The notes beneath the pieces were generated by a model. It was not told the origin of the DNA and did no database searches. It saw nothing but the letters and a program-made list of their open reading frames with translations. From Gautieria morchelliformis (lineage: Eukaryota > Basidiomycota > Agaricomycetes > Gomphales > Gomphaceae): 64,000 nt of DNA. Made by a program: the position numbers and the translations under genes. The stretch is taken from NCBI GenBank assembly GCA_015179125.1, contig WHVA01000129.1, positions 1 through 64,000 on the forward strand. Reading direction: 5' to 3'. Below, piece after piece: positions 5,113-64,000 of the stretch (its first letter is position 1; each line of letters opens with the position of its first letter).

Positions 5113-5432
5113 TGGTCAGCACAGCGATCTTGTTTAAGATGCTGCAAGAACCACTCTTCAACTGTTTGCTAGGCAAACAGTCAGTGGAAGTTCAAAAAGG
5201 TGTAAAGTGGTTGGCTTATTACTTGTGTTATCACAAGGCAGTAGAACTCGACCAAACTATGGTGATTCTAATACAACGTAGTGACGGTTACAGGTAAAGT
5301 TAAGCTGGGGAATCCTGGTGGATTCCCATGCAAGAACTATACAGTGGGTCCGCGAGGACCCACTGGCGCTATGTAAGCTACCAGCTATTATGTGTTGCTT
5401 CGCGGCAACACAGGTAAATATCTATATTTACA
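5071..5432 (-). repeat. LTR/leader of element A made of consecutive perfect hairpins
   Basis: No coding sequence. Perfect hairpins follow one another: 5161-5181 (stem 9, loop 3), 5308-5327 (stem 8, loop 4), 5342-5365 (stem 10, GCGA loop), 5391-5412 (stem 8, loop 6) and 5414-5431 (stem 8, loop 2). Minus-strand sequence from 5432 begins TG, as expected of an LTR edge. The boundary between LTR and leader is not visible. Confidence 0.55.
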
Positions 5433-5433
5433 G

Positions 5434-5600
5434 TGGCACGGCTCTCAACTATTTCAAACCGGCTCTTATGGATCCCTATGCCATCATTGATTGGGCAGAC
5501 GATTTTCTCAATTTTGTTTCCAAACTCCGCAATAACTTTGGACCTTTCAATATGAAAGCCGATGTGGAAAATGAACTTGATAAGCTTCATATGAAAGTGT
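5434..5600 (+). pseudogene. Gag fragment of a second gypsy family
   Basis: About 54 codons read GTALNYFKPALMDPYAIIDW and onward to NELDKLHMK. They correspond to the gag of element B (minus strand, 28111-29463), which reads GTALDYFEPALMDPFALVDW at the same place. The fragment starts exactly where element A ends, so A probably inserted inside this older gag. The downstream sequence to 5780 has no recognisable coding content. Confidence 0.7.
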
Positions 5601-5787
5601 TACGACCATGCCGCCTAACCATCTCCACCACCTCTGGAACACTTCTGCACCACCTCCAACTCTATTCCACTGTATGGGAACTGCTGTTCAACCAGCATAT
5701 TGTGTAGTCTCAGATCTAGCTGTTCAACCAGCCTTTAAACTGTCTCCTTACTGTAAATTTGTATTCTGCATCAAAGGCCTCTAAAAC

Positions 5788-6232
5788 TAGTGATGGGCAG
5801 GGCCCGGCTTGGCCCCAAAGCCCAGGCTTGGGCCCGGCCTGCTCAGGCTTGGGCTTCCCAAATCCTGAGCCAGGTCCTTACCAGCAGGCCCGGCCCGACT
5901 TGGGCCGCAGCCTGTTGGTGGGGAACTAGACATGTATGTTGCACCTCCAACAATAGCACCACCAGCCGCCGCTGTTGCCGCTCGCGTGGCCAAACCAGCA
6001 CACCCATCCCCCCCACGCACCTGCAGCCCCATACGCACGTGCACACACAGCTGCATGTGCACGCCTACCCCCACGCAGATGCCCACATGCACGCAGAGGA
6101 GCAATGCCCCTACCGCGCTACTCTCACTGCAGGGTACAGGTGAAGGAAGGAGACGGTGGGGGTGGGGGTGGGATTTTTAAGGTGCTGGTGGGAGGGTGGG
6201 GCGGAAGGAGAAGGAGAAGTGCTGGGCGCCTA
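5788..6232. mobile_element. Left part of a split hAT-like non-autonomous transposon
   Basis: It begins TAGTGATGGGC (5788-5798), preceded by the 8-bp flank TCTAAAAC (5780-5787), and continues into a GC-rich run of GGGCCCGGCTTGG-type subterminal repeats. The matching end, TAGTGATGGGC next to GTTTTAAA (complement TTTAAAAC), lies at 15202-15220, pointing the same way on the plus strand. An 11-bp terminal repeat and an 8-bp flank match (7 of 8) are typical of hAT elements. The two halves were separated by an LTR insertion and then an inversion. No transposase is visible. Confidence 0.65.
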
Positions 6233-7764
6233 TGTTTTGGAACCCTTCAAGACTTTGGTGTTATTGCTAACGCCTCTGTCTATCAGAATGTGTCATTTAC
6301 ACGACTAGTAGAATACCAGTTCAATGCAGCAGCACAACTCCGGAAATAATTTAATATTTGTACCTTGGTTGCAATCTGTGTAATAACTAGTCCAAGTTAT
6401 TACAGCTGGAAGGCAATGCATTTCTTAGCTGCACTGAACAATAAACTAAAAGAGTGTGTAGGTTCAAGGACACTATCGGGGTCCAAGAGTATTCCTTTTA
6501 ATAAAGAGGGAATAGGCTCTGCAGGAGAGTTTGTAAGTGGACTGGGTCGACCAACGTCAATGCACTGCAATAACGAGAGAGTAATGTGAAGTGGCTTTCA
6601 TGCACAACTTGACTTGACTTGTGAAAGTCACTGAACAGGAAAATCAACTGAACAGCTCGTCTCGGGTATTGGAGTGCTAATTGACAAGAAAATCGATTGC
6701 CAACCTCACTCTGTAGAGTTTCACCCAGCGTGTTAGGCTAAGTGGCTAAGCAGTAAAGCAACTACTTAACTAAGAATAGTTACTCTAAGCAAGAGTAGTA
6801 TTCTAGTTTGGGTTAGGAACTTAGGTAAGATGTGCAAGTCACACAAGCTGTGTAGGATAGAAGATGGGTAGATTGATTGCTCAAAGGGCAGGCAAAGGGC
6901 CTCCTTTTATATTGTAATGTACAGGAGCTTAGTAAGCAGGTAGAACCTTCTATCTATTAATGGAATGGGGGAAGAAGCTTGTGGAAGGTGGAAGAAAGGG
7001 TTGGAAGAAACTGGCTGTTTCCAGGGGACTCTACCATGCTTCCTACCAATCAGAGCTTGATTTGTCAGGAATGACTCACTGAAAGGGGTCATGTGCCATA
7101 GCACAGCTTGGCTGAGTCATGTACTCCTGACTCACCAAGGTGTGCCTGGATTGGTTGAGCCATTGAGGCTATATCTCCAGATAACCATGTATTTGGCACT
7201 CAGAAGCTGAGTAAGCAGTTCTGAGCCAATTAGGGCGCTGTAGCCATAATTACTAAGAGCACTGCTTAGCACAGCTGAGCATAGCCTGGTACAGCCTAGT
7301 TGTCATGACTGACCATGATCCCCATTGTTTGGTGAAGCCAAACAGGCTGCACAGTTGCTATGGCTGCATATAGCAACTGTTTGGGACTCAGCTGGAAATA
7401 CTGAGAGAGCCATCCTGCCGGACTTGTGGGTGCTTGGGTGACCATAAGTCCGAAAATGTGGCCACCGCCGAGGTGCCCGGCGGAGTTTGAAATAGAGCGC
7501 CCGGAACAGAGTTGTGGGTGCTAGAGGATCCACAACTCTGTAATGACAGAAAAATGGTAGTTTGAGCCATGGAGACTTTGGAAAAATAAGGAAAAATATA
7601 AGATAACTAGAGGAATGTTTGAAAAGCCTTTCCCCAGTTATATTAACAGCATACAGATACTGTTAATTCTTCAAATGTGTTTTTACATGTTGTCAAGACA
7701 AAAAGAAAAGACTAGGGCTGGTTGAGCAGCCTTCCTTGGCTGGTTGAACAGCCGTTCCCCTACA
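6233..7764 (-). mobile_element. Solo LTR, 1532 bp, left copy (minus orientation)
   Basis: Plus-strand ends are TGTTTTGGAACCC and TTCCCCTACA, i.e. TG...CA. The copy at 15337-16868 is its reverse complement, of identical length; I saw only two substitutions in the parts compared. On the minus strand a TATAAAAG box (6911-6904) precedes the transcribed part, as in an LTR promoter. Flanks are GCCTA on the left and GCCCA on the right, so it lacks a matching 5-bp duplication of its own. Long ORFs inside (for example minus 7533-7303) are repeat sequence with no known domain. Confidence 0.85.
6904..6911 (-). promoter_or_regulatory. TATA box of the left 1532-bp LTR
   Basis: TATAAAAG on the minus strand, at the mirror position of 16190-16197 in the right copy. 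It lies in a GGAGGCCC-containing context typical of LTR U3/R borders. Confidence 0.5.
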
Positions 7765-28110: not shown

Positions 28111-29463
28111 TCAGCTCATGCGGAGGCCGGAGGACTGCTGACTATTTTTTTGCATCCATAGCGGGAGTCGCTCGGATTTCTCTTCCGTCTTCGCTGCGTG
28201 GCCCTTGGCCTTAGCAGCGGAAGCGGAAGCTCGGGTGCAGTCGCGAGCGACGTGACCGCCTTTGCCACAGAAAAGGCAAAGGTTGTTGTCCATGCGACGC
28301 TGGCGTTCTACAGGGGTTAGCTTGCCGTCCTTCCCAAGTTTGTCAGAAAGGTCCGGAGTGCTCTTCCGGGCGTTGGTGTTGGAACCAGAGGCCTGGTTGT
28401 TGCGAGGGGTGGAGTTGTTGTTCCGGTTGCCGGAGTTGGAGCCAGAACTGTTATTGTTGTTGTTGTTTCCGGAGTTGTTGTTTCCGGAATTAGTCTTCTT
28501 CTTGTCTTTGTCAGACTTCTTGTCGGAAGACTTGTTGTTCTTGCTCTGGGCGGAAGTTTCGCGAGCGATCTCGGAATGTCTTTCCCAGTAGCGCGAATCG
28601 ATGGATTGGGCTAAGTTGCGAAGGTTGGTAAGGGTGGCGGGTTTTCCGACGCGGGCAATTTCATCCTTGATCCGGGATGGCAGGCCCATGTAAAACTGGC
28701 GTCGGAGTGCAGCTTCTCCCCATTGTACTCCAGGAGCGAGCTGCTGGAATGTGACGATATATTTAGCTATCTTATGAGTGTCTTTCATACGAAGCTTATC
28801 GAGTTCATTTTCCGCATCGGCTTCCATATCAAATGGTCCGAAGTTGCTGCGGAGTTCGGAAACGAAGTTGTGGTAATCGTCGGCCCAGTCGACGAGAGCG
28901 AACGGATCCATGAGGGCGGGTTCGAAGTAGTCGAGAGCCGTGCCTCGGAGATAGGAAAGGGCGTAATTGACCTTTCGTTCGTCGTCGGGAAAGGCGTCGG
29001 GACGATCGCGGAAGTTGAGTTGAAGCTGGACCAGAAATGGCTGGAGCTTCTTGGGGTCAGAACCGTCAAACTGATCTGGTTCGCAGACCTTGGTCTTGGG
29101 GCGTGGTGGTGCTTGGGCCAGGTGCTGAAGTTGTCTGGCTAGCATGGCGATGGCTTGTGCAAGATCCGGAACTGGCGCGGGCGGAACTGGGTTGGTGGGA
29201 ATCTGAGGTGGGATTGGAGGTGGAGGACCACCTGGGGGACCGCCGGGTGGGCCGCCATGAGGGCCACCTGGGGGTGGTCCTGGTGGGGGTGGTGGTGGTG
29301 GAGCTGGGCGTCGGAATGACGCTGCTGTTTGTTCGCCACTGCTACTCATCGAATTCCCGTCATAGTCGGGATTGTCTTCGGGATTAGCGTCGGGAACTTC
29401 TTCGAAACGTTGCGGAATCGCGTCGGAGAGCTCGTCATCTGCACGAGAGCTGTCTGAAGGCAT
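28111..29463 (-). CDS. Gag of element B, intact
   Basis: A 450-codon open frame starting 33 bp inside the 5' LTR. It has an acidic N-terminus, a proline/glycine stretch (residues about 52-95), the gag core (YLRGTALDYFEPALMDPFAL near residue 172), an asparagine/serine-rich linker and a CCHC knuckle CLFCGKGGHVARDC near residue 405. It is the only long intact frame of the element; pol is broken, so this copy could act only with help from another. The frame after the knuckle ends at 28111, just upstream of the protease region. Confidence 0.85.
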   Translation of the reverse strand: MPSDSSRADDELSDAIPQRFEEVPDANPEDNPDYDGNSMSSSGEQTAASFRRPAPPPPPPPGPPPGGPHGGPPGGPPGGPPPPIPPQIPTNPVPPAPVPDLAQAIAMLARQLQHLAQAPPRPKTKVCEPDQFDGSDPKKLQPFLVQLQLNFRDRPDAFPDDERKVNYALSYLRGTALDYFEPALMDPFALVDWADDYHNFVSELRSNFGPFDMEADAENELDKLRMKDTHKIAKYIVTFQQLAPGVQWGEAALRRQFYMGLPSRIKDEIARVGKPATLTNLRNLAQSIDSRYWERHSEIARETSAQSKNNKSSDKKSDKDKKKTNSGNNNSGNNNNNNSSGSNSGNRNNNSTPRNNQASGSNTNARKSTPDLSDKLGKDGKLTPVERQRRMDNNLCLFCGKGGHVARDCTRASASAAKAKGHAAKTEEKSERLPLWMQKNSQQSSGLRMS

Positions 29464-29496
29464 AGCGGTAGTTATCAGGTGGGAATCAGATAATAC

Positions 29497-30216
29497 TGTT
29501 ACATATCAGAATTCCCGGAGGTCGGAACTGGAAAGGACAACGGCTTCAACTTATGTGTTGCGCCCCTGATGAACTACCGTCCTAAGTATTTCAGAGTTGA
29601 CTTGCGGATATCGGAGAAGGTGGAAGTTGGGAGCAGAGTACTGAAGGTCGAGGGTCGGAGGGCAAAGGTCGGAAGAGGCGGAAGAGGTGGAGGACAGAGG
29701 TTCGAGGACTGAAGGAGACAAGACTAGCAAAACTCGCTGTGCTAAGAACAGGAGACAGTGCGAAGGGAATCACGTATTGATGTCGATTATCTGATTGCAG
29801 AAACAGAGACATACATGAGGGGGTTTTATACAAAGAGCAGAAGCAAAGGTAATGGTATGATACTAAGCAAGTTCCGGAGAGTGCGGGAATCAGATAGACA
29901 TTCGGGGCAAGTAACTAATGCGGAACAATGGGATGACAAGGGGGGTGCAGGGTAGGGTAAGTACAATGGCAAAGAACAAGGCGAGTAAGTACAATAGGCA
30001 TCAGAAAAAGCAGAACTACGGAAATGGTATCTTGCTGGTTTCAGGGTCGAGTACGGGGGCCGGTATCTGGAGGTGGCCAGGGGTACTAAAAGAACAAAGG
30101 GTCGAGGTAGAGGGTTGCGGAAGTTGCGGATGTCGGAATAGAGTCAGAGGTGGTACGGAGGTAGTGCGGAGGATATGCGGAGGTGGCGGAGATGGTTGAT
30201 TGGAACAGTCGTAACA
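29497..30216 (-). repeat. 5' LTR of element B
   Basis: Plus-strand ends are TGTTACATATCAG and CAGTCGTAACA. Immediately after it (GACCATGCC) the pol frame of element C begins in mid-protein, so this LTR marks the insertion point in C. Confidence 0.85.
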
Positions 30217-31862
30217 GACCATGCCATCGAGTTGGAGCCTGGGTCAAAGCCCACCAACTGCAAAGTCTACCCGCTGTCACCCAAGGAGCAGGTAGAGCTC
30301 GATGCATTCCTTGCGGAAAACCTCCGTACAGGGAGGATCCGCCCCTCCAAGTCACCCATGGCATCTCCGGTGTTCTTCATCAAGGAGAAGGACGGCTCGC
30401 TCAGCCTTGTGCAGGAATACCGGGCCCTGAATGCGATCACGATCAAGAACCGGTACCCCATTCCACTCATTTCCAAACTAATCACACAACTCCGTGGGGC
30501 AAGGTACTTCACTAAGCTGGATGTCTGCTGGGGCTTCAATAATGTTCGGATCCGGGAGGGAGACGAGTGGAAGGCCGCATTCCGCACCAACCGAGGACTC
30601 TTTGAGCCGCAGGTGATGTTCTTCGGCCTCACCAACAGTCCCGCCACATTCCAGACGATGATGAATGACATTTTCCGTGACATGATAGCAGAAGGGGTTG
30701 TCTGCGTCTACCTTGATGACATCCTCATCTTCACAAAAACAATGTCGGAACATCGGGAAGTTGTGCGGAGAGTGCTGGAACGGCTCCGGGAATACAACCT
30801 GTGTCTCAAGCCGGAAAAGTGCGAATTTGAGCGGATGCGGATAGAGTATCTTGGGGTGATTGTGTCGGAAGGAAAGGTGGAAATGGACCCAGTCAAAGTG
30901 TCCGGTGTATCGGATTGGCCTGTGCCGTGGAACAAGAAAGAGGTCCAGTCCTTCATTGGGTTTGTCAATTTCTACCAGCGGTTCATCAAGGACTTCTCCT
31001 GCCACGCTCATGCCCTCTTCGACCTCACCAAGAAGTAGGTTGGATGGCGGTGGGGAGAGCCGGAACAGGCCTCCTTTGACAAACTCAAAGAGCTGATCAC
31101 TTCCGCCCCGGTCCTGATCTTTCCCGATGACTCTCGCCCTTATCGAGTCGAGGCAGATTCTTCCGACACAGCTACCGGAGCGGTCTTGTCACAACAGTCA
31201 CCAGAAGATGATGGGGGATGGCATCCGATTGCCTTCTTCTCTAAAAGCCTTAGTCTGGTCGAGCGGAACTATGAGATCCACGACAAGGAGATGCTGGCAA
31301 TCATCCGGGTGCTGGAGGAGTGGCGACACTTCCTCGAGGGTGCTCTATGCCCATTTGAGATCTGGACAGACCACAAGAACCTCGAGTACTTCCACACATC
31401 TAAGAAGTTGAACCGACGACAAGCACGGTGGTCCCTACACCTGTCCCGGTTCGACTTCATGCTCCACCACTGCCCCGGCCGCACCATGGGCAAGCCCGAT
31501 GCCCTATCCCGCCGTGCAGATCATGGAAGCGGAAGTGGAGACAATGCTGATATGACACTACTCCACCCAAGTCTCTTTGCAATCCGCGCCCTCGAAGGAG
31601 TGACTGCAGTTGGGGCGGAAGCGGAAATGCTCTGGGACATCCGCAGGCAGTACCGGAATGGAGAGAAGGAGGAGTCGGTGGTGAAGGCGGTGGAGGAACT
31701 TCGGAAAAGGAACTCATGATCTGTACGGGCAGCGGAATGGTGGGAACGTGATGGGCTGATCCACTTCAGAGGCAAGGTCTATGTTCCAAGTGGGGCGGAC
31801 CCCCGCCGCCGCATCGTGTCCCAGCACCATGACACATGGGTCACTGGGCATCAGGGCTGTCC
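30217..31862 (+). pseudogene. Pol fragment of gypsy element C (RT, RNase H, integrase N-terminus)
   Basis: The frame starts in mid-protein (HAIELEPGSKPTNCK). The RT has the intact box VYLDDILIFTKT, followed by RNase H (NYEIHDKEMLAIIR) and the start of the integrase zinc-binding region (HHDTWVTGHQG). In-frame stops occur at 31036 (TAG) and about 31717 (TGA). It ends at a junction with the inverted copy C' near 31862. The missing 5' part of C would lie left of element B but is not there. Confidence 0.8.
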
Positions 31863-31869
31863 ACGCATC

Positions 31870-34135
31870 AGGCTTGCCCATGGTGCGGCCGGGGCGGTGG
31901 TGGAGCATGAAGTCGAACCGGGACAGGTGTAGGGCCCACCGTGCTTGTTGTCGGTTCAACTTCTTAGATGTGCGGAAATACTCGAGGTTCTTGTGGTCTG
32001 TCCAGATCTCAAATGGGCACAGAGCACCCTCGAGGAAGTGTCGCCACTCCTCCAGCGCCCGGATGATTGCCAGCATCTCCTTGTCATGGATCTCATAGTT
32101 CCGCTCGACCGGACTAAGGCTCTTAGAGAAGAAGGCAATCGGATGCCACCCCCCACCATCTTCCGATGACTGTTGTGACAAGACCGCTCCGGTAGCTGTG
32201 TCGGAAGAATCCGCTTCGACTCGATAAGGGCGAGAGTCGTCGGGAAAGACCAGGACCGGGCGGAAGTGATCAGCTCTTTGAGTTTGTCAAAGGAGGCCTG
32301 TTCCGGCTCTCCCCACCGCCATCCAACCTCCTTCTTGGTGAGGTCGAAGAGGGCACGGGCGTGGCAGGAGAAGTCCTTGATGAACTGCCGGTAGAAATTG
32401 ACAAACCCAATGAAGGACTGGACCTCCTTCTTGTTCCGCAGCACGGGCCAATCCGATATACCGGAAACTTTGACCGGGTCCATTTCCACCTTTCCTTCCG
32501 ACACAATCATCCCAAGATACTCTATCCGCGTCCGCTCAAATTCGCACTTTTCCGGCTTGAGACACAGGTTGTACTCCCGGAGCCATTCCAGCACTCTCCG
32601 CACGACTTCCCGATGTTCGGACATTGTTTTTGTGAAGACGAGGATGTCATTGAGGTAGACGCAGACAACCCCTTCTGCTATCATATCACAGAAAATGTCA
32701 TTCATCATCGTCTGGAATGTGGCGGGACTGTTGGTGAGGCCGAAGAACATGACCTGCGGCTCAAAGAGTCCTTGGTTGGTGCGGAATGCGGCCTTCCACT
32801 CGTCTCCCTCTCGGATCCGAACATTATTGAAGCCCCAGCGGACATCCAGCTTAGTGAAGTACCTTGCCCCACGGAGTTGTGTGATTAGTTCGGAAATGAG
32901 TGGAATGGGGTACCGGTTCTTGATTGTGATCGCATTCAAGGCCCGGTAATCCTGCACAAGTCTGAGCGAGCCGTCCTTCTTCTTGATGAAGAACACCGGA
33001 GATGCCATGGGTGACTTGGAGGGGCGGATCCTCCCTGTACGAAGGTTTTCCGCAAGGAATGCATCGAGCTCTACCTGCTCCTTGGGTGACAGCAGGTAGA
33101 CTTTGCAGTTGGTGGGCTTTGACCCAGGCTCCAACTCGATGGCGTGGTCCCACAGCTTCCGTGGAGGCAGGGCATCAAACGACTCCTTGGAAAAGACATC
33201 CTCAAACTCCCGCAGGTACTCTGGAATTTCCGCCTCTGCTCTATCGTGCTTCTTGGAGGCTTCAGCAAGGCGTTGCGAAATGTTTCCGGTGGCGCGGATG
33301 TGTTCCGCTTCTGGCGAAAGGTTTATGTACAGCAAGCGCTCCCCTTCCGCCAGAGTGTCTTCCGGACCGAGTCGGATGACGTCGGAGTCGGAATCGGAAT
33401 CGGAATCGGAATTGGGAGTGGGATCCGGTTCAAATTCCGCTTCCGAGTCTTCTTCTGCAAGCAGCGGATGGGGGCCAGAAGACATGTCTGTATAAGCCGT
33501 TCGGTCTTCCGCTGCTCCTGGCGTTCCTTCCGCACCTCCGACCGGCACATGTGACACTTGGCTGGACATCGACTCATCAGTACCTTCCGAGTCTGCCAAT
33601 TGATCTCCGGGTTGTGCTCCTGAAGCCAGGTAAACCCGAGGATGATGTCTTGCTTCCCCAGGCTGGTGACTGCAAAGGAAGTGCGTTCTGAGTGCCCATC
33701 GTAGCGGAGAATTGGGTCTACTATCTCCGTGATGGACCCTGCCTCATTGGGGCTTCCATCCACATTGAACACCGGGATTGCACATTGCAACTTCCGCGTG
33801 GTCAGTCGGTTCCATTCCACATAGTCCCGGTCTATAAACTGACCAGTGGCCCTGCAATCGACAAGGGCAGGTCCAGATTTGACTTCCGCCGTATCCGTCG
33901 TCTGGATCTCCACCTTAATGACTAGTGACTTGGGGCCAGGGGTGGCAGCGACAACATAGCGCTTCGGAAGGTGTTTCTCCCAAGGGCGGATGCGGGATGG
34001 ACGGGGTGTCGGATTTGGTTTTTGTGTGACTTTATCCGGTGGGTCTGTACGAAGTGAGGGGAGTGGGGGCTTTTCATTCTCTACTTCAAGACAGGCAAAC
34101 CGGTTATGTACAGGCAGCAGGGGCACACATCTCAC
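31870..34135 (-). pseudogene. Protease and reverse transcriptase/RNase H of C', with active-site changes
   Basis: Two overlapping frames: 34135-33323 (protease region) and 33599-31956 (RT), followed by RNase H in another frame (32181 to about 31870). At the protease active site the expected D-S/T-G reads DCRATGQFI. The RT box reads VYLNDILVFTKT, with Asn replacing a catalytic Asp; the sister copy C keeps YLDD. A run of SDSDSDSD residues comes from a GGAATC repeat at about 33388-33412. Frames shift between domains. This copy is judged dead. Confidence 0.75.
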
Positions 34136-35289
34136 CCGCTGCGCGTCACAAAATCCGATGCATCCTCCACCTCTGGTGGATCATGTTCCACATTTTCGGA
34201 AACTTCTTCGGCAGAGGGCACTCCGCTTATGTCCGCAAGTGCGAGGAACTCTGGAAGGAGCTCGAGTTTCTCCTCCGTGGTCATAAGCCGGATATCAAAG
34301 GCTTGGGGGCACTCGTGAGCATAGTGGCCTGGTTGTTGACATCGGAAGCAGGTGATAGTTCCGCGGCCTTTTCCGCGCATGCGGTCAACATCCATCGGGG
34401 CAGGGCCACTCTTCGAGGGAGGAGGGCTAGGGTTTCTAATAGGAGCAGGCGGAGCAAGCGTCGGAAATAATTTCTGGGTGGGAATGAATGCGCTTCTGGG
34501 TTTTGGCACAGGTGGAGCAGGACGAGTGGAACTGCTTGTCATGTTCCGGCTCGTCTCCACGAAGGCCTCATTTGCTTCCCTGTTCCGGGACACCCTCTGC
34601 GCAGCCTTCCGGGTCATCAAAATCCAGAGCTCCATCCCAAGCAGCGCGACTTGGTTCTGGAGTGTCGGATCAAGTCCTCGTCGGAATTTGATGACGATCG
34701 TCTTGTCGTCATCATACTTCGCAAGGTTGATGAGCTCCTGGAAGCAATCAATGTAGTCATCGACCGGATCCTTGGCCTGGTACCAGCTGGTCCCCTCGAG
34801 CTTCGTAAGGGTGGTGAGCTGCTCGTTTTTTGGGCAGAACTGGTGGGAAAATGTTTTCTCGAAGGCGTCCCAGTCCCGGAAGTAGTTCCCCTTGCCCTTT
34901 GCTTCATGTCGGATCACCTTGTTTGCAAAACGGGCTGCGCGGTCCGACTTGAAAAAGGACAATGCCCAGTGAATCCGAGCCTGGTCGTTTGGAAAGAGGT
35001 CTCCAACAATTGCGAAGTAGATGCTGCATGTGTTGAAGAATGCGCGTCCCTTCTCCCGATCTCCGTCAAAGTCCGCCAGAGTTGCGGGTTTGACCTTTGC
35101 CGCGGAGACCCTCTCTTCCGCTACTTCAGCTTTTCCGAAATCCGGATCGTCCAGCATTCCATTTCCACCACTTTGTGGAATATCTAACTTAGCCAAAATC
35201 GCTTGTAAGGCTGTTTCAATTGTGTCGGTCTTCATCTGGTTCCGCGTCAGTTCCTCCTCCATACTCCGAAGACGATCGTCCGGATCCAT
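34132..35289 (-). CDS. Gag of element C'
   Basis: The frame is open from 35487, but the first ATG is at 35289 (MDPDDRLRSMEEEL). It contains the Retrotrans_gag core (RIHWALSFFKSDRAARFAN and later QFCPKNEQLTTLTKLEGTSW) and a CCHC knuckle, CFRCQQPGHYAHEC, near the C-terminus. The upstream in-frame extension reaches into the LTR and probably is not translated from ATG. Confidence 0.75.
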   Translation of the reverse strand: MDPDDRLRSMEEELTRNQMKTDTIETALQAILAKLDIPQSGGNGMLDDPDFGKAEVAEERVSAAKVKPATLADFDGDREKGRAFFNTCSIYFAIVGDLFPNDQARIHWALSFFKSDRAARFANKVIRHEAKGKGNYFRDWDAFEKTFSHQFCPKNEQLTTLTKLEGTSWYQAKDPVDDYIDCFQELINLAKYDDDKTIVIKFRRGLDPTLQNQVALLGMELWILMTRKAAQRVSRNREANEAFVETSRNMTSSSTRPAPPVPKPRSAFIPTQKLFPTLAPPAPIRNPSPPPSKSGPAPMDVDRMRGKGRGTITCFRCQQPGHYAHECPQAFDIRLMTTEEKLELLPEFLALADISGVPSAEEVSENVEHDPPEVEDASDFVTRSG

Positions 35290-35476
35290 GTTGGAAGGAG
35301 AAATATGGGACGGGATTTCCGGGGTTGGGAGCTCGGCGTAAGAAGAGGGGCTATCGTACGCTGTGTGTGCGGAAGAGGTCGCAATCTCCGAGTTGCTGTC
35401 TCCGATTCCGAACGCACCTATGGTGAATGCAACGCGCAGAACGACCGCCGGTCCTCTAGGGGAGGGACTTTTCTGC

Positions 35477-35966
35477 TGTAAGGGCAACCCTGGCTGGTTG
35501 TGGAGATCACACTACCACACAACTGACAAGGGGAAATCCAAAGTATGTATAAATGAACAGAGTATACAAGAGAGGGGATTCTCACCTGACAAGGGGAAAT
35601 CCAAAGAGAAAAGTCTAAGGACCCCCAATGTCAGCGAGCCTGTATTATACTACGCTGCGCAGCCAGGGACAACACTTGGCACCCACCATCAACCCTGCAT
35701 CTCCTTGACCACCCTGACCCTTGATCGACCCTTGATGCCACCTATTACGCGAGTCGCTTGATTCCCGACACTGTTCTGAGAGTGGAAGTCGGAAATTGGA
35801 GTGGAACTGGCAAGGTGAACAGAACTGGTGGAAGTTCTTCCAGGAGCGGAATCATTTCCGAAAGCGGAGGCGGAGATGGAATCGGAACCAGAAGCGGAGT
35901 CAGAACTGGAGTCGGAACTGGGTGCGGTGTCAGAACTGGAAATGGAAAACAGGGTGTCCCCTGACA
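35477..35966 (-). repeat. 5' LTR of element C' (490 bp)
   Basis: On the minus strand it begins TGTCAGGGGACACCC and ends CCCTTACA. It has the same length and family as the LTR at 37064-37553. It contains stretches rich in GGAACTGG/TCCGACTCC-type simple repeats. Confidence 0.85.
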
Positions 35967-55275: not shown

Positions 55276-56990
55276 TCACGCTAATTCAACTAGGGAGGGA
55301 TCCGCCGCAAATTCAACCAGGAATATCTTTGTCTCTGCGAGGACAACCATACGCCCGGGCCCAGCAAAAATGTGATTAGATGAAGTTGTGCCGAGGAATA
55401 TCTTTCCCAGAAGAACCCCGGAGGTGTTGAACACCTGTCTCGTGGATTGTCATTTTAGCGACTGAAACAGCTCCCCAACAAAGGAAAAAACAGACCTGAA
55501 CGCCATCACCACATGAAGCATATACGTTGCCGTTGCTGTCCACTTGAACCCCGTCCGGTACACCAGTGTCTACCCATGCGAGCACTCGACGATTGGTGAA
55601 CACTTGTGTCTTCTCATCCACATCAAAAGCATATCTAAGTGAAAGATCAGCGCCTGAACTAGAAAGTATGTACTAACATCTTACAATGTGGCAGCTTCTG
55701 TAGAGTTGAAGCCTCCTTTTACGCTTGCCCCCGTATCTGCTCTAACTCGCAGATCAGCAGATCAATATGGAGCACGGAAATCAGTCAGTCAGATACCCAC
55801 ATATACGCCACACTTCCATCCGGAGAGAATGCAATCCCATTGCACTTGTCAAAACCGTCGGCGACGACTCGTATTTGACTCGTCTTGGGGTCAAAACGGT
55901 ATACTTGATTAGGAAGCTGCAAAAGAAATAAGTTTCTCCCAGAGCTCCAGTATTTGTAATACACGTACAAGTGGTGGCGGCCTAAAATCGTTGATGAAGC
56001 CGTAACTACCTCCCATGGGTCAGTTGAGACGCAAACCAGAGCTGCAGGCTTACATGACATCAGTGAAAAATATGGCACCGCTTTTCGGGTGAATCTTCGC
56101 ATCATTGAGGGAATTGAACTGACGACCATGTATATTGTCCAGGATTGTAGTGGAATTGAAAGGAGGATTAGGATTGACGAGAGATAAACCGGGGGGGAAG
56201 CTCCCTCGCCCAGAAGTAATGAATAACAGGTTGTCCCCGAACGGTGTTCCACCGTTTACCATCTGAATTTCCGGGGTAATCGGTACCTAAAGTGGGTATT
56301 ATAATATATCAAGGGGTCTCAGCTTACAGTCCAAGATGGGTTACCTTGGTAAATGTGATATTCTGTGGTCCGGTCCCGTTGACGTCGTTCAGGTTGATCA
56401 TGGAGACTTGATTGTTGTGGTTCAGATCGCTCATTCCTAAGGGGCCCTAACGACCGAAATGTCAATTTGAACGCTGCTCTTAGTGTAAACTGAGTGAATA
56501 ACATACTCCGTCATTGCTAGCAAAGAACACTTCATTTGTTGCGGGGCTCCAGATTGGAGCCTAACATTACCGGGTTTAGAGATAGGTGCAAACACCAGAG
56601 ATCGACGTAGACATACCTCGTGTGCAAAGGCGAAATCATCACGCTCTGAAATAAGGCGCACCGAGGGATTTGATCCCAGAATATCCAGGAAACTGGAATC
56701 CCAGACTTGGAAAAACGGAGGGGTAAGGTTTGTGGGGTTCAATGGAGTGATGACATCCCGAAAACTCCCATTAGCTCCAAGAACGGCAAGCCCTGGGACA
56801 TCGATCAACTGGCCACACAGCGGTTCATTTACTGCAAGGAAACTTATGAATCAAATCTGATAGGTGCACATACCACTGTTTGAGGCGGAGGGGCATTTGT
56901 GGCTGCTGTTGAAGCATGCACGGCTTGAGACGACACCAACAGCGCAACAAGGGTTCCAGATAAACCAAGAATAGAGAAATACCGCGCCAT
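55276..56990 (-). CDS. Secreted SMP-30/gluconolactonase-like protein
   Basis: Ten exons: 56874-56990, 56617-56808, 56507-56560, 56345-56446, 56054-56286, 55969-56005, 55801-55916, 55685-55741, 55496-55634 and 55276-55434; all phases agree, 401 residues. It starts with a signal peptide (MARYFSILGLSGTLVALLVS). Beta-propeller motifs follow: SSFLDILGSNPSVRLISE, PIWSPATNEVFFASNDG, GRQFNSLNDAKIHPKSGAIF, GIAFSPDGSVAYIADTGAS and TGVPDGVQVDSNGNVYASCG. These match fungal lactonohydrolase/gluconolactonase proteins, which bind a divalent metal in the central channel and hydrolyse lactones. Asn in SLND and Asp in VPDG/NGNVY regions are plausible metal ligands. Substrate unknown. The second exon acceptor (GCCAG|TTG) was chosen because the earlier one gives an immediate stop. 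Confidence 0.85.
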
Positions 56991-57368
56991 ATTTGATGAT
57001 TGAGGAGTCGGGTTGTGGGTAAGGGTTGGAAGAGGGCAGCTTGGGCTTCCTCATCGAAGCATTCGTTGCACTTCATAAGTACTGGTTGAGTGGCCCGAAA
57101 TTGGAGCGCTTGCTAGTGTGCCAAGCCATGTGACTATGCGTGTTGCAAAGACTTCACGCGGGTAAGTGAGCAAGTCAGCTTGTGGGTGAGCCCGTGACCC
57201 AGAAACATCAGTGAGTCGGCACGAAATATAACCAGAATTCGGAGGCTGAGATCTGAGGCCTTAAGAAGACTTTGGCTTCATGCAATAATGATCCTAAGGG
57301 CTTATCTTCAGTGGTGGATGCATATGTAATTACGTACAAACGTAGACCACGGTTACAGTAATCCACAA

Positions 57369-57590
57369 TTAGCCCCCCCGAAGTTCGTGTAAGTATGCAT
57401 CGACGCCAAAGCTGAAGCAGATGACGTGGCTGCGCAATTCGTATACCTCCATTGGATGAACTTTCCGTAGAGCTAGATTCCTGGATTTGAGTGCTAGCCG
57501 ATGACAGGGAAGCGTTTTGTGGGCAATTTCTTGGTTGTTGGGCCTCCTCCCAACTTGAACTTGAAGTTCAGCAATGTCGGTGTCCAGCTA
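57369..57590 (-). pseudogene. Isolated exon-like ORF next to the viral island
   Basis: On the minus strand an acceptor-like TTTCTAG precedes a frame reading LDTDIAELQVQVGRRPNNQE through LALRKVHPMEVYELRSHV to a TAA at 57369. It looks like the last exon of a host gene whose upstream part would run into the viral junction near 57895. Not recognised. Confidence 0.3.
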
Positions 57591-57898
57591 GAAACCAAAT
57601 ATCAGTCACTGCAAGGTGAATCGTACAAATACAGGCCTCTGAGGGTCATTCGCTTGCAGACAGTTACGTAACTCATTTACACAAGATCAGTGACTAGCGT
57701 GACACGAACTTATTGCTCACCTGCCGGCACTTTTACCATCGTTTTGGCGTTACGGCTTCGAAATCGGTCCCAAACTCGACAACTGCCATACGAAGAACTA
57801 GGAGTTTAGCAATTTAGAGGAATGGAAAGTCACCCACTGAGTAGCAGTTGCATGTACCTGCGCAGCAGCGCCTGCATACATGAGAAACTCACTCAAAT

Positions 57899-60582
57899 GT
57901 GTCTATAAAATTAGGAGAGCCAACAGATAGAGATAATTATGGATTTAAAGTATTCCAATCCTCCGGTCATATTATATCAAACCTGATAAAAAAAGCATTC
58001 AGGAAAAAAAGTGGTCGGATAAGAAAACGGATGCAAGATGAATTATATTCTGTAATGAAGACGGGGAATATAAAAATAGGTAATACTATAAAATCCAAAT
58101 TAGTAGTTCAAGTCAGAACAAGATCTACTCTGGATACTATGTCTAGTATCAGGAGAATTATCATACCTGTGGATGACAATTCTATGAGTCATAAGATGAG
58201 ACAAATTCACCCCACCCAAAAAGGCTTTGTATGTCATAGCAAGACTCCGGAGGGAAAACAGGTAGGACTCACAAAGAATCTAGCATTGACCTGTGTTATA
58301 AGTCCAGCAATGGAAAATATATATCATATAGTACTAAACTATGTTACACAGGAACCTGGGAATTGGGTAATATATAACGGAGTTGTAATAGGATTTGAAC
58401 TTCATAATACATATAAGAGATTAGTAGAACTTAAAAAGACATATCCATATATGTCAGTAAATAGGGGTATATATTCCGAGATTTTTGTAAGAACTTGGGA
58501 AGAAAGGTTAATGAGACCATTGGTAAAAACTGGTGGTAAAGTGTTCCCATGGAATATAATATATGAAAACTCATGGGAAGAAATGTTACAATATGGGATA
58601 ATAGAATATGTAGATCCATTGGAAATCAAGTTGAAGAAGATAGCCAAAGATTCATATGAAAAAGAACCTCACAAATTCACTCATATGGAGATACATCCTT
58701 ATACTATGTTTGGGATAGCAGCTTCGACTATCCCTTTTATTAACCATAACCATGGGGCCAGGTCAACATTTGCATCATCTATGATCAAACAAGCTATGCA
58801 AAGTCCTCCCAATCCAAAAGTAGATGGTAAATACCTGGTATATGGTCAAAAACCTTTGATATACACACAAACTGAGAAAATGTTAGGTCTTCCACAAAAT
58901 GGCATTAATGCACTTGTGTGTATATCATCATTCACTGGTTATAACCAAGAGGATGCCATTTTAATTAATAAGTCTTTTGCTGAGAGGGGAGGATTTTCAT
59001 CGGTTACTAATAAAACAAAGAGAATTGATTCAGAACATGAAAGAAGAGAGATTGTAGTTCAAAAGAATATACCGCATACTATAGAAAGATTGCCACATGA
59101 AATACGTGTTACGGAGGTGAATGGAAAACTACCCAAAGAGATAGATATTACAAAGAGAAATAATAGAACAGATGACACAATATGGGTTATAGATGGAAAC
59201 AATCAAAAAATAGTAAGCAAATATAGTTTTCAGGAAGTTATTAGTAATGAGATATTATCTACAGTAAGGGCCCGTTCGGCGCCCGCGAATTGACATGCAA
59301 TGGTGAATTAGTTCAGATATAAGCAGGGTAGTTAAATCTGGACAGATTTTATTTTCTTCGCGAATTGAAACCAGCCGAACAGCTGGAGTTTTCAACTGTT
59401 CTCAACCCAAGCAAGGAGTACTGCCGGCACCACAGCCTACATCTAGTAAGTACTGATGCATCGGCAGATTGATTGCCAAGAGCATGTGCAAACATAATTA
59501 AGCTGTCATGTGACATAGCCAAAGTTTGCCATTTCAGAGGTTTTTCCATGCCTATGTGCGATGTAAGGGAATCAGGCTTACAAGGAAGCTTACTTATTAC
59601 AAAAAATTTACCTGTTTTCTAGTGCAGTACAATGGTCTATGAGTACTAGAGCATTGTGGCACTGGCAACGGACTAGATGATGGGTGTCGTGGACCGGATG
59701 ACGGGACGGACCTGACAATACAGTTTGAGTTAAATGCTGCTAGATTACGGCTAGATATTAAAGAACTAGAAATTTAAACTGCTTAAACTGCTCAGAGCAG
59801 TATGGAAAAATAGTAGAGGGTTCCTTGCGAACTGCATCGCAAAAATCTTGCGAAACCGCGTGCCGAACAGTCACAATCCGCAGAATTTCTACGAACTGCC
59901 AGTTCGCACATTTTGGGTGGTGCGAATTGTTCACAAAATCAAATTTGCGGGCGCCAAATGGGCCCTAAGGTATAAGAATTTGGAGCAAGGTGATAAATTA
60001 TCATCTAGACATGCTCAAAAAGGAGTTGTAGGATTAATACTTGATAGTATCGATATGCCATTTACAGAATATGGTATTATTCTAGATATCATTATTAATC
60101 CTCATAGTGTTCCATCTAGCATGACGATGGGACAGCTAATAGAAGGAATGTTAGGCAGAAAGTGTGCTATTGCTGGTAGATTTGCGGATGGTACACCATT
60201 TAGTAATATTGACATATCTCAAGAACTAGATAATAAAGTAACTCTTATTAATGGTATAACAGGAGAAGTAATGGAATCATATGGTGTTATAGATATAGTA
60301 TATTATATGGTTCTGACTCACCGAGTAGTAGACAAGATATATATCAGATCTGTAGGACCTAGAAATGAGTTCTCCCACCAGCCAGTACCCAGGAAAGCTA
60401 AGGATGGTGGTTTAAGATTTGGAGAGATGGAATTAGATTTATTGATAGCTCATGGAAGTGCATCAATGACATTGAATATGATAAGAAATAGTGACATGAC
60501 AATTTTCAGAATGTGCAGAGAATGCAAATATTTCCCAATAGATGGAAATAAATGTAGAATGTGTAATAATAGATATATGTGA
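57899..60582 (+). pseudogene. Viral-type DNA-directed RNA polymerase subunit 2 (RPB2), 5'-truncated and split by a MITE
   Basis: Two open parts, 57899-59267 and 59966-60582, lie on either side of a 698-bp insertion. The first begins at DRDNYGFKVFQSSG, a site some 400 residues into a normal RPB2, so the N-terminal third is absent. Then come TPEGKQVGLTKNLALTCVIS, HPYTMFGIAASTIPFINHNH, NQEDAILINKSFAERGGF, then after the insertion GDKLSSRHAQKG and GLRFGEMELDLLIAHGSA. It ends with a Cys4 zinc site (CRECKYFPIDGNKCRMC). The subunit forms the nucleotide-binding half of a multisubunit polymerase, which such viruses use for transcription in the cytoplasm. Apart from the truncation and the insertion, the remaining frame is open. 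It lacks introns and is AT-rich, unlike the host genes. Confidence 0.82.
59268..59965. mobile_element. 698-bp MITE, PIF/Harbinger (Tourist)-like, inserted in the viral RPB2 gene
   Basis: The ends are GGGCCCGTTCGGCGCCCGCG and the inverted GGGCCCATTTGGCGCCCGCA, a terminal repeat of about 25 bp with four mismatches. The 3-bp flank TAA occurs at 59265-59267 and 59966-59968. The target and terminal pattern fit PIF/Harbinger elements. No transposase. Removing the element and one TAA would return the viral frame exactly. Confidence 0.85.
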
Positions 60583-60682
60583 TTAAAGTACTCAAGTACC
60601 TCATGCTTATAAATAACATCAATCTTTGTGTTGACAAATAGACAAAGTTTGTAGTTTTAAAAAAATTAGAATTCTATAAAAT

Positions 60683-61240
60683 CTATAGTCTTCCCTCAAA
60701 TTCATCTACAAATTTCTTAAATACTTCAAAATATTGTAATGTATTTTTTCTAGGTACATACTTTGATACAACTGTAGGTTTTTGCATATGTTGGCCAGTG
60801 ATAATACAGTCACTAAGTTCTTGGGTGACTGGTATCAAATAAAATCCTCCGGTCATTATAATACATGGTATAATCATTTCTTTCAAATCACCCAATCCAT
60901 AGGCATTTCTCCTTATTCTGTTATTTTCTTGGAATATTGCTATTGCTCTTGGTATGATCTCAGAATCATTATCTTCATACATCATAAATAATACTTTGAA
61001 TCTTTCTGAGATCATACAAGCACCACTTTGGGCAACTGTTTCTTCTCCACATACTACTAGTGGTATGATATTTCTTGACCTTGTTATCCTATTATCATAT
61101 ATAGATGATAGTAACTCTATTGAGCGATTATCTATGATATTCTCATTTGGAATTATGTTTGTACCAAAGAATTTTTCTTCTTTTACTACTTTTATATTGT
61201 ATATATATTTGTTTCTATATATAACATACAATGAAATCAT
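60683..61240 (-). CDS. Orphan viral ORF, 185 codons
   Basis: An ATG-initiated frame convergent with the polymerase gene, 100 bp apart. Notable segments are IPLVVCGEETVAQSGACMIS and PCIIMTGGFYLIPVTQELSD. I recognise no domain. It is short compared with many viral enzymes and could be the C-terminal part of a longer gene, but no upstream continuation is seen in frame. Its AT-rich codons match the rest of the island. Confidence 0.5.
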   Translation of the reverse strand: MISLYVIYRNKYIYNIKVVKEEKFFGTNIIPNENIIDNRSIELLSSIYDNRITRSRNIIPLVVCGEETVAQSGACMISERFKVLFMMYEDNDSEIIPRAIAIFQENNRIRRNAYGLGDLKEMIIPCIIMTGGFYLIPVTQELSDCIITGQHMQKPTVVSKYVPRKNTLQYFEVFKKFVDEFEGRL

Positions 61241-61371
61241 TTTAATCTAAATTCTTTTTTGAATTTTTAAAATCTGGAATTTGGAATGTGAATACTTCTA
61301 GAGGTTACACCCAGCCAAAATGGTTTTCAGGTGACCCTCAAAATAACAATCTTAATATTTAAAAAAAAAAA

Positions 61372-63210
61372 TCATATATTTTGGGAAAATATACAGGATT
61401 CTAAATTTGGGAAGAAATTATATTTATTATTTGATTCATCCCACTTCAAATTGGTAATTCCATGCTTTCTCCTAATCTTATTTATATATCTTATATAATC
61501 ACTTATGATACTATTTGAAGGGACGTATATCTTCAGAGCCAATGGTCTCGTATTACATTGTTCTTCATCCATGTTTGCATTTCTGACTGATACACATTTA
61601 CCCATATTATTGATAAACTGTTCTACTATACCATTCATTGTATTTGGTACTCCTCTTATAGTCATACTCTTTTTTACTCTTAGAAGTTTACTACATATAT
61701 TTTTCTCTTCCAGAGAAAAAATACATGTGTCTTCGAATACAAGTTCGTATGTGTTCTTAGTCTTTGTATGAATAGGTGGATATACTTCTATTATCAAAAT
61801 ATATCTATTAGATAACTGACGATTCCATATATATTCTCCTCTATGATGGGGTAAATGTATTTCATATTCTCCTTTAGATACAGTTATTATTATTATATTA
61901 CATGAATACAGTTCTTCATAATATCTGTAATAAGAGCTATCTACATTATCATTGTTGATGTTTGTCTTTATTTGTTCTTCATCTATATACCATAAATCTT
62001 GTTTACATACCAAGTGCAAATGCTTATTTATCTTACTATTACATTTTCCAAATGCTGATTCTACACATTCCAAGAATGAGCTCTTTTGAATTACGGTATA
62101 TTCTTTAGAATTAATTTTACGTACATATGATATCTTATGTTTTTTATTTTCAGTGGTATTCCCATGTATGTATTTATATGTAATAGAATTTTCTCTTTTC
62201 ATATGATTTGTTTTATAACATGTCACTAGATACTGATACTTATCTTTGTTTGATAGTCTATTCACTTTCAATCCTACATAATAATTTTCAGGTGCTGTAT
62301 GATATCTACCATGATATAATGTGCTTGCATCTCTGGTATCATCAGTTATTATTGGAAGGACAGGGCATTCTCTTGAGTAGTTATGTATGAACAATTCAGG
62401 TTCCACTTTTCTCAAAATTTTCAAAGTATTTTCTTTCTTGTCTGTCCTTTCCTTTTCTTCATTATATAATTCAGAATATGTTTTATTCATACTATCATAT
62501 ACATCCTCGTATATTTCAAACAATACCAATATTATGGACAATACTATTTCTATATTATAGTACAATTTTGGAGACGATATTCTTATTATTATTCTGTTAG
62601 ATTCATCTATTATCGTAAATTTGAGAATACGCAGACAGCTGTAAGATATCTTTTCTCATGAAGAAGCTTAGAAGATTCCTGTACTGAGACTACTCTGAGA
62701 TACTTCTCTATCATTTGTAATAATATCCACCATAATATGTTTTTTTCCACGGTTTTTTTATATTTATTTCTCTTATCCAACACACTATCCAAATCTTCTT
62801 CGATATCATATTTGAACATTATACTATGTTTTCTTATTTTCACATTCATATTTTTGAACCTGGTATATATAACATCAGTTTCATTCTTATCATCTTCTAA
62901 CATCCATTCTGGTAAGGGTCAATGTTTGATGAAATTTTTCTCATTCCATTATATATCATCATAGGGAATCTAATTCTTTAAATATCAAGCTGAGATCTAT
63001 CTTCCCATCTTATATGACACAATTGATATTTCTGGCAAATTTAAATTTCTTCTCATTATAAACTCATAAATATTGTGATATAATATTCTGTGTTCCTCAA
63101 ACAATGGAGCATCTACTAGAGTTTCATGATCATCTCCTAACCCAAGAACTATTGACCGTAGATTCCACAATTCCTTACAATTAACCCTGTGTTTCCTCCT
63201 TTCTAGGGAA
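61372..63210 (-). pseudogene. Decayed viral ORF resembling early transcription factor large subunit (VETF-L)
   Basis: The long frame 62565-61372 continues upstream without ATG to about 62640 (…LRILKFTIIDESNR). It is then in another frame at 62903-62610 (MLEDDKNETDVIYTRF...), and before that about 63210-62985 (KELWNLRSIVLGLGDDHE...). This suggests one gene broken by frameshifts. The segment PELFIHNYSRECPVLPI, followed by ENYYVGLKVNRLSNKDKYQY and CYKTNHMKRENS, resembles a block I associate with the large subunit of the early transcription factor of large DNA viruses. That match is from memory of the motif, not a search. The C-terminal part has no further domain I can name. Confidence 0.45.
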
Positions 63211-63212
63211 GA

Positions 63213-63404
63213 TCAATGTTCCCTGTTCCAATTTTCTACTATATCATCCAAGTTATCAAATGTATCGTAACCATCAAAAACAATAGTATTTGGGGTACAA
63301 TTATTGTTGTAACAGAAAGAAAGTACTTCCCTACACGGCCAATGGGATCTAACCCAGTGACCTGCTCGGCCATGGTTTGAACCCCGAATTCCAACAAGTT
63401 TCAC
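63213..63404 (-). other. Junction ORF at the right edge of the island
   Basis: The frame starts in host-like GC-richer sequence (MKLVGIRGSNHGRAGHWVRS) and runs into AT-rich sequence with TPNTIVFDGYDTFDNLDDIV. It crosses the composition border near 63330 and stops at a TGA at 63213. The first part has a tRNA-like flavour in DNA (TGGCCGAGCAGG, GGGTTCAAACC) but no cloverleaf forms. Probably a chance fusion across the integration border. Confidence 0.3.
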
Positions 63405-64000
63405 CGCATTTTTAACACTACATCCCAGCTGCTTTAAAAATTCTCACCTGCAGCACCGGTCCGCCGTGAAACCCGACCGCTCGCTTTCCATGACTAGTCT
63501 CCAGGCCTTATTTCATGTTACGTTGTAGGAAGCTTTCACCACTCCTCCCACCCTCCGTTCTTAGTTTTCACCGGCAACACTCATTGGAATCACAGCTGTG
63601 CAAAGTTCACCCTCACACTGGCCCGTTTTTCCAGGTTATGTCGCAGCTTCACTTGCGGGTCCTAATATAGTTATATACATACAGTTTAACGTTATCATCT
63701 TTTTATAAACATGTATTACACCTCTGAAGTACACTTCGCGTTCATTCTTTGCCAAACGATCGTTCGTCCCAGGCCACACACACACTCACATAACCCACCC
63801 AGGGGCCCCTCGTCAAGTCGCGCCCCCACCGCCTGGCTTTCTCGTCATACCAGGCTTCGACCAGGCCCCAAAAGTTGATACGTTGGCGGCAGGAGGCTCG
63901 TGTGGCCCCCGCCATTCCAGGCAGAGGGGTCATGCGTGGGGGCGGGTTGAAATAGATTAGTGCATTTTCAATCTCTTTGAAGTTTTCGTACACCCATCGT
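63405..64000. other. Host-type sequence, no gene recognised
   Basis: GC-richer than the island. Short open frames only (e.g. minus 63993-63742), without domain content. Confidence 0.35.

Follow-up and report, generated by a model that had tools for sequence, protein, structure and literature searches.

Remnants of virus-type transcription genes within host DNA of the basidiomycete Gautieria morchelliformis

Genes and features of the block

The window, a stretch of 64,000 nucleotides, comprises positions 1 to 64,000 of the forward strand of contig WHVA01000129.1 (assembly GCA_015179125.1). An intronless block of 5.4 kb was found at positions 57,896-63,330, with an overall GC content of 0.31. 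Leaving out the transposon, GC content was 0.307, compared with 0.491 in the 20 kb to the left, in agreement with the AT-rich, intronless island described in an earlier note made from the letters alone. Similarity to relatives begins at 57,896-57,899 and stops at 63,326-63,332, and a host repeat starts at 63,331-63,332; the limits given earlier (57895..63330) were thus right to a few bases. The features are listed in Table 1.

Table 1. Features of the block and its borders (window positions)
Feature	Position	Strand	Details
Host repeat left of block	57489..57838	.	family end at about 57,838; 57,839-57,895 lie between repeat and viral block
Viral RPB2, first piece, 5'-truncated	57896..59267	+	P0091 residues about 222-664; frame open, stop-free; Pfam, tblastn, trees
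MITE-type host transposon in RPB2	59268..59965	.	terminal repeats GGGCCCGTTCGGC...; TAA at 59,265-59,267 and 59,966-59,968
Viral RPB2, second piece, domains 6-7 and CxxC..CxxC	59966..60579	+	P0091 residues 662-862; Pfam, tblastn
185-codon ORF within viral block	60683..61240	-	open reading frame only
DUF5757 pseudogene	61375..63330	-	PF19061, E 3.1e-14; first ~5 codons missing
Host repeat adjoining block on right	63331..63600	.	copies in C181, C374 and C560

The RPB2 translations contain TDRDNYGFK, GYNQEDAILINKSF, GDKLSSRHAQKG and a CxxC...CxxC tail. Using Pfam, the first piece was matched to RPB2 domain 3 (E 2.5e-14) and domain 6 (E 1.4e-20), and the second piece to domain 6 (E 1.1e-47) and domain 7 (E 8.1e-12). 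The RNA polymerase subunit 2 with its named motifs and Cys4 tail, as first proposed, was thereby confirmed. Identity to P0091 was 68% for the first piece and 72% for the second. Compared with this protein, the first ~221 codons are missing and one frameshift lies close to the gene end, out-of-frame similarity continuing to about 60,626 (tblastn). For the polymerase gene of the window, as for P0091, P0073, P0085 and P0104, Pfam gave matches to Rpb2 domains only, the beta-prime part not being fused. As it stands, the block cannot code for a whole polymerase subunit. The two polymerase parts originally reported were indeed polymerase, but they are one gene, split by the MITE between TAA duplications.

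The MITE is about 700 bp long, has inverted repeats and a GC content of 0.446, and occurs in 13 further near-full-length copies elsewhere in the genome (87-91% identity); the viral block is therefore nuclear DNA. It differs from the majority of these copies at 39 of 697 sites; 23 of the differences are common to other copies and 16 (2.3%) are private, so that dating by the MITE is a loose guide only. On the left, positions 57,489-57,518 and 57,727-57,838 are present in many copies across the fungus's own genome, and both of the two copies inspected diverge past AAGTCACCCA. On the right, the repeat copies on C181 and C560 start at most one base from that of the window, the DNA upstream being unrelated, and the match to the copy on C374 begins at 63,351. 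No empty site was found using paralogous flanks; the junctions may be eroded. With a MITE in the gene, a repeat at the border and a contig of 239 kb in a 122-Mb fungal assembly, the viral genes lie within host chromosomal DNA. A DUF6533 match on contig C682 fits a basidiomycete host, the family not being known outside basidiomycetes.

The DUF5757 pseudogene has accumulated one stop and seven frameshifts and was matched to its relative P0027 at 67%. In the predicted structure of P0027, a TBP fold was recognized that resembles poxvirus VETF-l. For the 185-codon ORF, a Pfam search gave no match and none of six pattern matches in IMG/VR was confirmed. What had been described as several ORFs without host-like features thus resolved into this single ORF and one DUF5757 pseudogene, in pieces, on the minus strand.

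Placement and relatives of the RPB2 gene

The first tree held 131 sequences (the window, 119 proteins and 11 IMG/VR ORFs), none being dropped. For the second, 76 sequences were chosen, the proteins among them being 62 of the 152 retrieved; 75 remained, since C471, a host gene, had too few columns and was dropped. Splits were counted without re-rooting, with P0115, a compact protein, on the compact side. In the second tree, the window RPB2 was placed in a compact clade of RPB2 proteins, set apart by a 100/100 split, which takes in proteins of Mortierella, Podila and Linnemannia genomes. The host RPB2-type genes on C198 and C479 fell on the other side of this split, by which a host paralogue was ruled out for these two genes. 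Grouping with the fungus's own subunits, named beforehand as evidence against a virus, was tested and not seen for either. The window gene also lay outside the 10 IMG/VR virus RPB2s in the tree, on a long branch and with the references unnamed. Judged by its Pfam domains and the trees, it belongs to a multisubunit RNA polymerase, probably virus-coded, with a relationship to eukaryotic RPB2.

An IMG/VR scan with the window RPB2 gave no match, and with DUF5757 none of seven pattern matches was confirmed. Broader RPB2 alignments yielded 23 and 26 IMG/VR loci (38 overall, several sharing contigs). The two trees included 11 and 10 of these loci, all on the full-length side. Scans for two other compact sub-clades gave 33 and 7 pattern matches, none confirmed, and no member of the compact clade was found in IMG/VR. 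From prokaryote genomes, 62 loci were obtained: 61 were archaeal by record title, and the remaining one (L155), filed under Bacteroidia, lay outside the compact clade. Fifteen phage records partly match P0091, none of them across more than 80% of it, and no phage record matches DUF5757. Models of the double jelly-roll major capsid protein and of VLTF3 (PF04451, PF04947) gave no match in the assembly, where the controls were silent too and just 5.4 kb of the virus is known. The unknown fungal virus lineage suspected earlier is supported in the form of this compact clade, with its members from Mortierellomycotina genomes and none found in IMG/VR.

Further fragments and origin of the block

Virus fragments of 27-197 bp were found at six further loci of the assembly, on five other contigs. 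Some of these are mosaics or, at C148:179.4 kb, a fold-back. At C304, two non-adjacent viral bits are joined in opposite orientation, and at C611 an RPB2 bit and a DUF5757 bit lie ~90 bp apart in the same relative orientation as in the virus. As a control, 258,767 bp of host DNA were searched at E 0.01: reversed and eight shuffled queries gave 0 matches, the real queries 8. The loci with a match had all been fetched on a match, the unselected part being the second bits of C304 and C148:179.4 kb only, and the latter bit was already listed earlier at E 0.08. An unrelated RPB2 stretch from IMG/VR, with a GC content of 0.57 compared with 0.33, gave 0 matches genome-wide at E 1.

Between the C345 fragment and the window there are 13 differences, of which 12 fall at third codon positions, and later neutral change in this pair amounts to at most 3.65% (95% upper bound). 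The copies therefore parted while the gene was functional, and at least two captures took place. The single lone fragment assumed before was not borne out, given the six additional loci. Together with the window, the seven loci would represent several independent nuclear fragments in stages of decay, as suggested by the third-position divergence of this one pair.

The data are probably best accounted for by repeated capture, at chromosome breaks, of DNA from cytoplasmic, nucleocytovirus-like fungal viruses, followed by decay. The source would be a large dsDNA virus with its own transcription machinery, represented here by RPB2 and by a promoter factor for which a TBP fold is predicted; following the poxvirus analogy, it would be transcribed in the cytoplasm. 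Pieces of its DNA would have reached the nucleus and been inserted into breaks by end joining, as indicated by genes that are cut off internally, by non-adjacent pieces joined into mosaics and by a fold-back. More than one capture, from related yet different virus strains, is supported by one test of synonymous divergence. Subsequently, the copy decayed: a host MITE entered RPB2, the stop and frameshifts arose, and the repeat now adjoining the right end probably replaced the original junction. Endogenous large-DNA-virus DNA, as claimed at the outset, is supported by the host transposon in a viral gene, the virus-type RPB2 and its TBP-fold neighbour; the label 'giant virus' is unproven.

Derivation from a large cytoplasmic linear plasmid or virus-like element of the killer-plasmid type, and not from a virion-forming virus, is unlikely. 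Such AT-rich elements have nuclear captures (NUPAVs) documented in yeasts in the available passages of PMC4431711. No capsid gene is among the virus genes read here, and several compact-clade contigs of about 35-37 kb are possibly complete small elements, but those of other clade members measure 54,482 to 124,495 bp. Moreover, the RNA polymerase of cytoplasmic linear plasmids is a single fused beta/beta-prime polypeptide, whereas this RPB2 stands as a subunit of its own and ends in an RPB2 C-terminus. The beta-prime-type motif D.DGD was present in just 2 of the 152 retrieved proteins (P0041 and P0059, both compact-clade). Yeast linear plasmids are not known to have a TBP-type VETF-l factor. 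In the portions available, this factor is presented as a feature of poxviruses (PMC12917281) and the cytoplasmic plasmid polymerase is termed 'uniquely structured' (PMC4431711).

A single insertion of one large virus genome, later broken up and scattered through deletions and rearrangements, would explain the closely spaced bits at C611, as after an internal deletion. It is nevertheless doubtful: the window and C345 copies parted as functional genes, C304 joins its bits in opposite orientation, and the contig shows no further RPB2 or DUF5757 similarity over the 20 kb that follow. A chimeric assembly or a contaminating virus contig, as the sharp GC step might suggest, is very improbable in view of the host MITE with its target duplication in the gene, the host repeat at the border and the fragments on five other contigs. 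That the gene is a divergent or pseudogenised copy of the fungus's own second subunit is scarcely credible, since, although all these sequences are homologous, C198 and C479 (C471 left out) stand across the split and the block is intronless, of low GC content and linked to DUF5757 like its relatives.

The compact clade and known systems

The block and the scattered shorter fragments point to a little-known large DNA virus family that has met the fungal lineage more than once. With somewhat less than even confidence, the clade is proposed as an unclassified deep lineage of fungal large DNA viruses, ranging from Mortierellomycotina to Basidiomycota and absent from catalogues, of which basidiomycete chromosomes archive many shards, only those from ~5 kb of its genome being visible here. 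Going further, fold-back shards such as C148:179.4 kb might conceivably be a source of anti-virus small RNAs. A basidiomycete fossil record with signs of repeated capture from functional viruses would widen the host range, and the compact RPB2 with the TBP-type DUF5757 could serve as bait for finding these viruses. Should shards be captured generally, fungal genomes would preserve a record of earlier infections, in pieces that the usual screens are too coarse to pick up because of their shortness.

In the predicted model, the DUF5757 protein has 690 aa, compared with 708 aa for poxvirus VETF-l (chain 7amv_K), and would likewise carry a TBP-like domain in its N-terminal half, as do VETF-l and VITF-3l (8p0j_H). 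According to the accessible text of PMC12917281, both poxvirus factors partner a virus-coded multisubunit RNA polymerase, as is probable here. Large DNA virus genes are also described, in the sections available, from the fungal genomes of Rhizophagus irregularis (a 1.5-Mb Asfarviridae-like region that, as here, includes RNA polymerase subunits), Gonapodya and Allomyces (PMC10640383, PMC5294986). By description only, those are early-diverging fungi with Asfarviridae- or Phycodnaviridae-type genes, whereas here the host is a basidiomycete, the RPB2 belongs to a compact clade, and the pieces are short and scattered. Fungal large DNA viruses have, as far as these extracts go, mostly been recognized from sequences of early-diverging fungi or inferred from co-occurrence (PMC10640383, PMC5294986, PMC9894930). 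The NUPAVs of yeasts, for which Frank and Wolfe (2009) are cited in PMC4431711, are similar in that, in the part consulted, AT-rich cytoplasmic DNA was captured repeatedly and is found in various stages of decay; they differ in their yeast hosts and in their source, which in the present case codes for RPB2 and for a factor of TBP type. Finally, putative Ascomycota-infecting mesomimiviruses from crustal fluids have likewise been proposed as large DNA viruses of Dikarya; as excerpted from PMC9894930, these are single-virion genomes of Mesomimiviridae, likened to the present case by description and not by sequence.

The interrupted RPB2 gene and its surroundings

The window corresponds to bases 1-64,000 of a contig of 239,559 bp (C148), within an assembly of 122,073,039 bp in 1,113 contigs. 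With the transposon excluded, GC content at 57,896-63,330 was 0.307, versus 0.491 across the 20 kb leftward. The RPB2 gene was compared with a retrieved relative of 894 aa (P0091). It begins at P0091 residue 222, and its first piece showed 68% identity over 461 aligned residues, with zero stops and zero frameshifts in 439 aligned codons. Past the insertion, the second piece picks up again at residue 662 (72% identity, 201 aligned). The inserted element is ~700 bp long, with inverted ends of 25 nt (88% complementary) and TAA duplications; a DNA search of the same genome returned 50 matches including itself, 13 of which, besides the window copy, were near full length at 87-91%. Since this host transposon sits inside the gene, a free virus contig was ruled out. 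The gene is broken by three lesions: truncation, transposon and one frameshift.

Beside the block, an SMP-30/gluconolactonase-like gene (window 55,372-57,255) has three paralogues on C181, C626 and C411 (90-92% over 1.75-1.9 kb). Minus-strand ORFs for a Ty3-type retrotransposon gag and a reverse transcriptase were found at 28,114-35,511.

A compact RPB2 clade

An RPB2 profile search gave 247 matches, the best 120 of which were retrieved. P0036-P0108 (73 proteins of 813-1,101 aa) and P0115 (882 aa) form the compact set; the remaining 43 of P0109-P0152 measured 1,079-1,417 aa. In the precomputed Pfam lists of the compact set, domains 3, 6 and 7 occurred, but domain 2 (lobe) was absent throughout. 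Full Pfam scans of P0091, P0073, P0085 and P0104 likewise lacked the lobe, which P0109 has. The compact set, together with the window gene, P0001 and P0002, was split from all others in IQ-TREE (100/100; 41 vs 34, branch 1.25) and in FastTree (1.0; 77 vs 54). The window gene clustered with P0091 and P0088 at 97.9/100, and at 96.6/100 on adding P0093. Host genes on C198 (best matches, PDB RPB2 chains) and C479 fell on the opposite side. The compact matches listed include proteins of Mortierella sp. GBA30 (P0073), Podila clonocystis (P0084) and Linnemannia elongata (P0085). Scans of IMG/VR with RPB2 queries found no compact-clade record at the sensitivity of a few short patterns each.

RPB2 and DUF5757 relatives were both found on contigs of 9,809, 33,074, 54,482 and 5,988 bp, taken as the same contig from equal size, and their identities to the window drop in parallel; the two genes therefore probably form a conserved neighbourhood in the lineage from which the block came. 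Seven compact-RPB2 contigs (P0042, P0049, P0052, P0073, P0081, P0082, P0085) measured 34.9-37.5 kb, a size that may point to complete ~36-kb molecules. A low-coverage contig filed as Bacteroidia (JAUIKE010000039.1), possibly viral or phage, carries a large RPB2-like ORF and, after it, one of 1,458 codons.

Fragments elsewhere and the number of captures

Fragment counts are lower bounds, as the genome search scores best candidates only.

Viral features in the block and elsewhere in the assembly (C, contig)
Feature	Location	Detail
RPB2 gene (+)	block, first
185-codon ORF (-)	block, second
DUF5757 gene (-)	block, third
RPB2 fragment	C345:104,592-104,787	93% of 197 bp vs window
DUF5757 fragment	C682:25,465-25,579	90% of 115 bp vs window
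DUF5757 fragment	C611	22 residues, E 5.0e-4
RPB2 bit, 15 codons	C611, ~90 bp from DUF5757 bit	E 0.001 within that locus
Virus fragment	C148:179,357-179,446	E 1.6e-10; second arm E 0.08
Virus fragment	C981:129,230-129,274	E 1.6e-7
Virus fragment	C304:438,751-438,790	E 3.5e-6

The C304 locus (438,650-438,900) holds a second viral bit of 36 bp, non-adjacent and in opposite orientation, all within ~100 bp. At C148:179,250-179,550, ~116 kb from the block, one 27-32-bp RPB2 bit occurs twice, head to head (locus 141-197), with a fold-back arm of 26 bp, 24 matching; it is a possible source of a hairpin transcript. By eye, a gag/zinc-knuckle-like stretch lies directly beyond the C345 piece (near 5,000 of its locus), and the C682 piece has a copia-like ORF (3,728-6,556 of its locus) a few kb away.

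Between the C345 fragment and the window there are 13 differing sites, 0/1/12 by codon position, plus a single 1-base gap. Neutral decay after host duplication would spread changes across codon positions (P 1.7e-5). The third-position bias indicates, from this one 197-bp fragment, that the copies diverged, most simply in viruses, while selection still kept the protein working, and were captured separately. Differences between C682 and the window (3/2/6) do not decide between these readings. For the window-C345 pair, subsequent neutral change amounts to no more than ~3.65% (95% bound), with which the transposon's private changes (16 in 700 bases) agree as a loose guide only.

Fungal large DNA viruses and the proposed capture

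Large DNA virus sequences are known from Rhizophagus, Gonapodya and Allomyces (PMC10640383, PMC5294986), the three positives among 392 fungal genomes in PMC5294986; a link to Ascomycota has been proposed (PMC9894930). Within the open-access PMC literature covered, no report from a basidiomycete and no description of the compact clade was found, which is no proof of priority. Nuclear capture of NUPAV DNA in yeasts is documented (PMC4431711).

Here, viral DNA fragments would have been joined into breaks by end joining. In-gene truncation, the joining of non-adjacent pieces, the fold-back and the lack of any terminal repeat seen at the block ends point to this; the block is now bordered by a repeat on the right and by 57 bases without assignment on the left. 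End joining at breaks is likewise the mechanism proposed for NUPAVs, the nuclear copies of cytoplasmic plasmid and virus DNA in yeasts.
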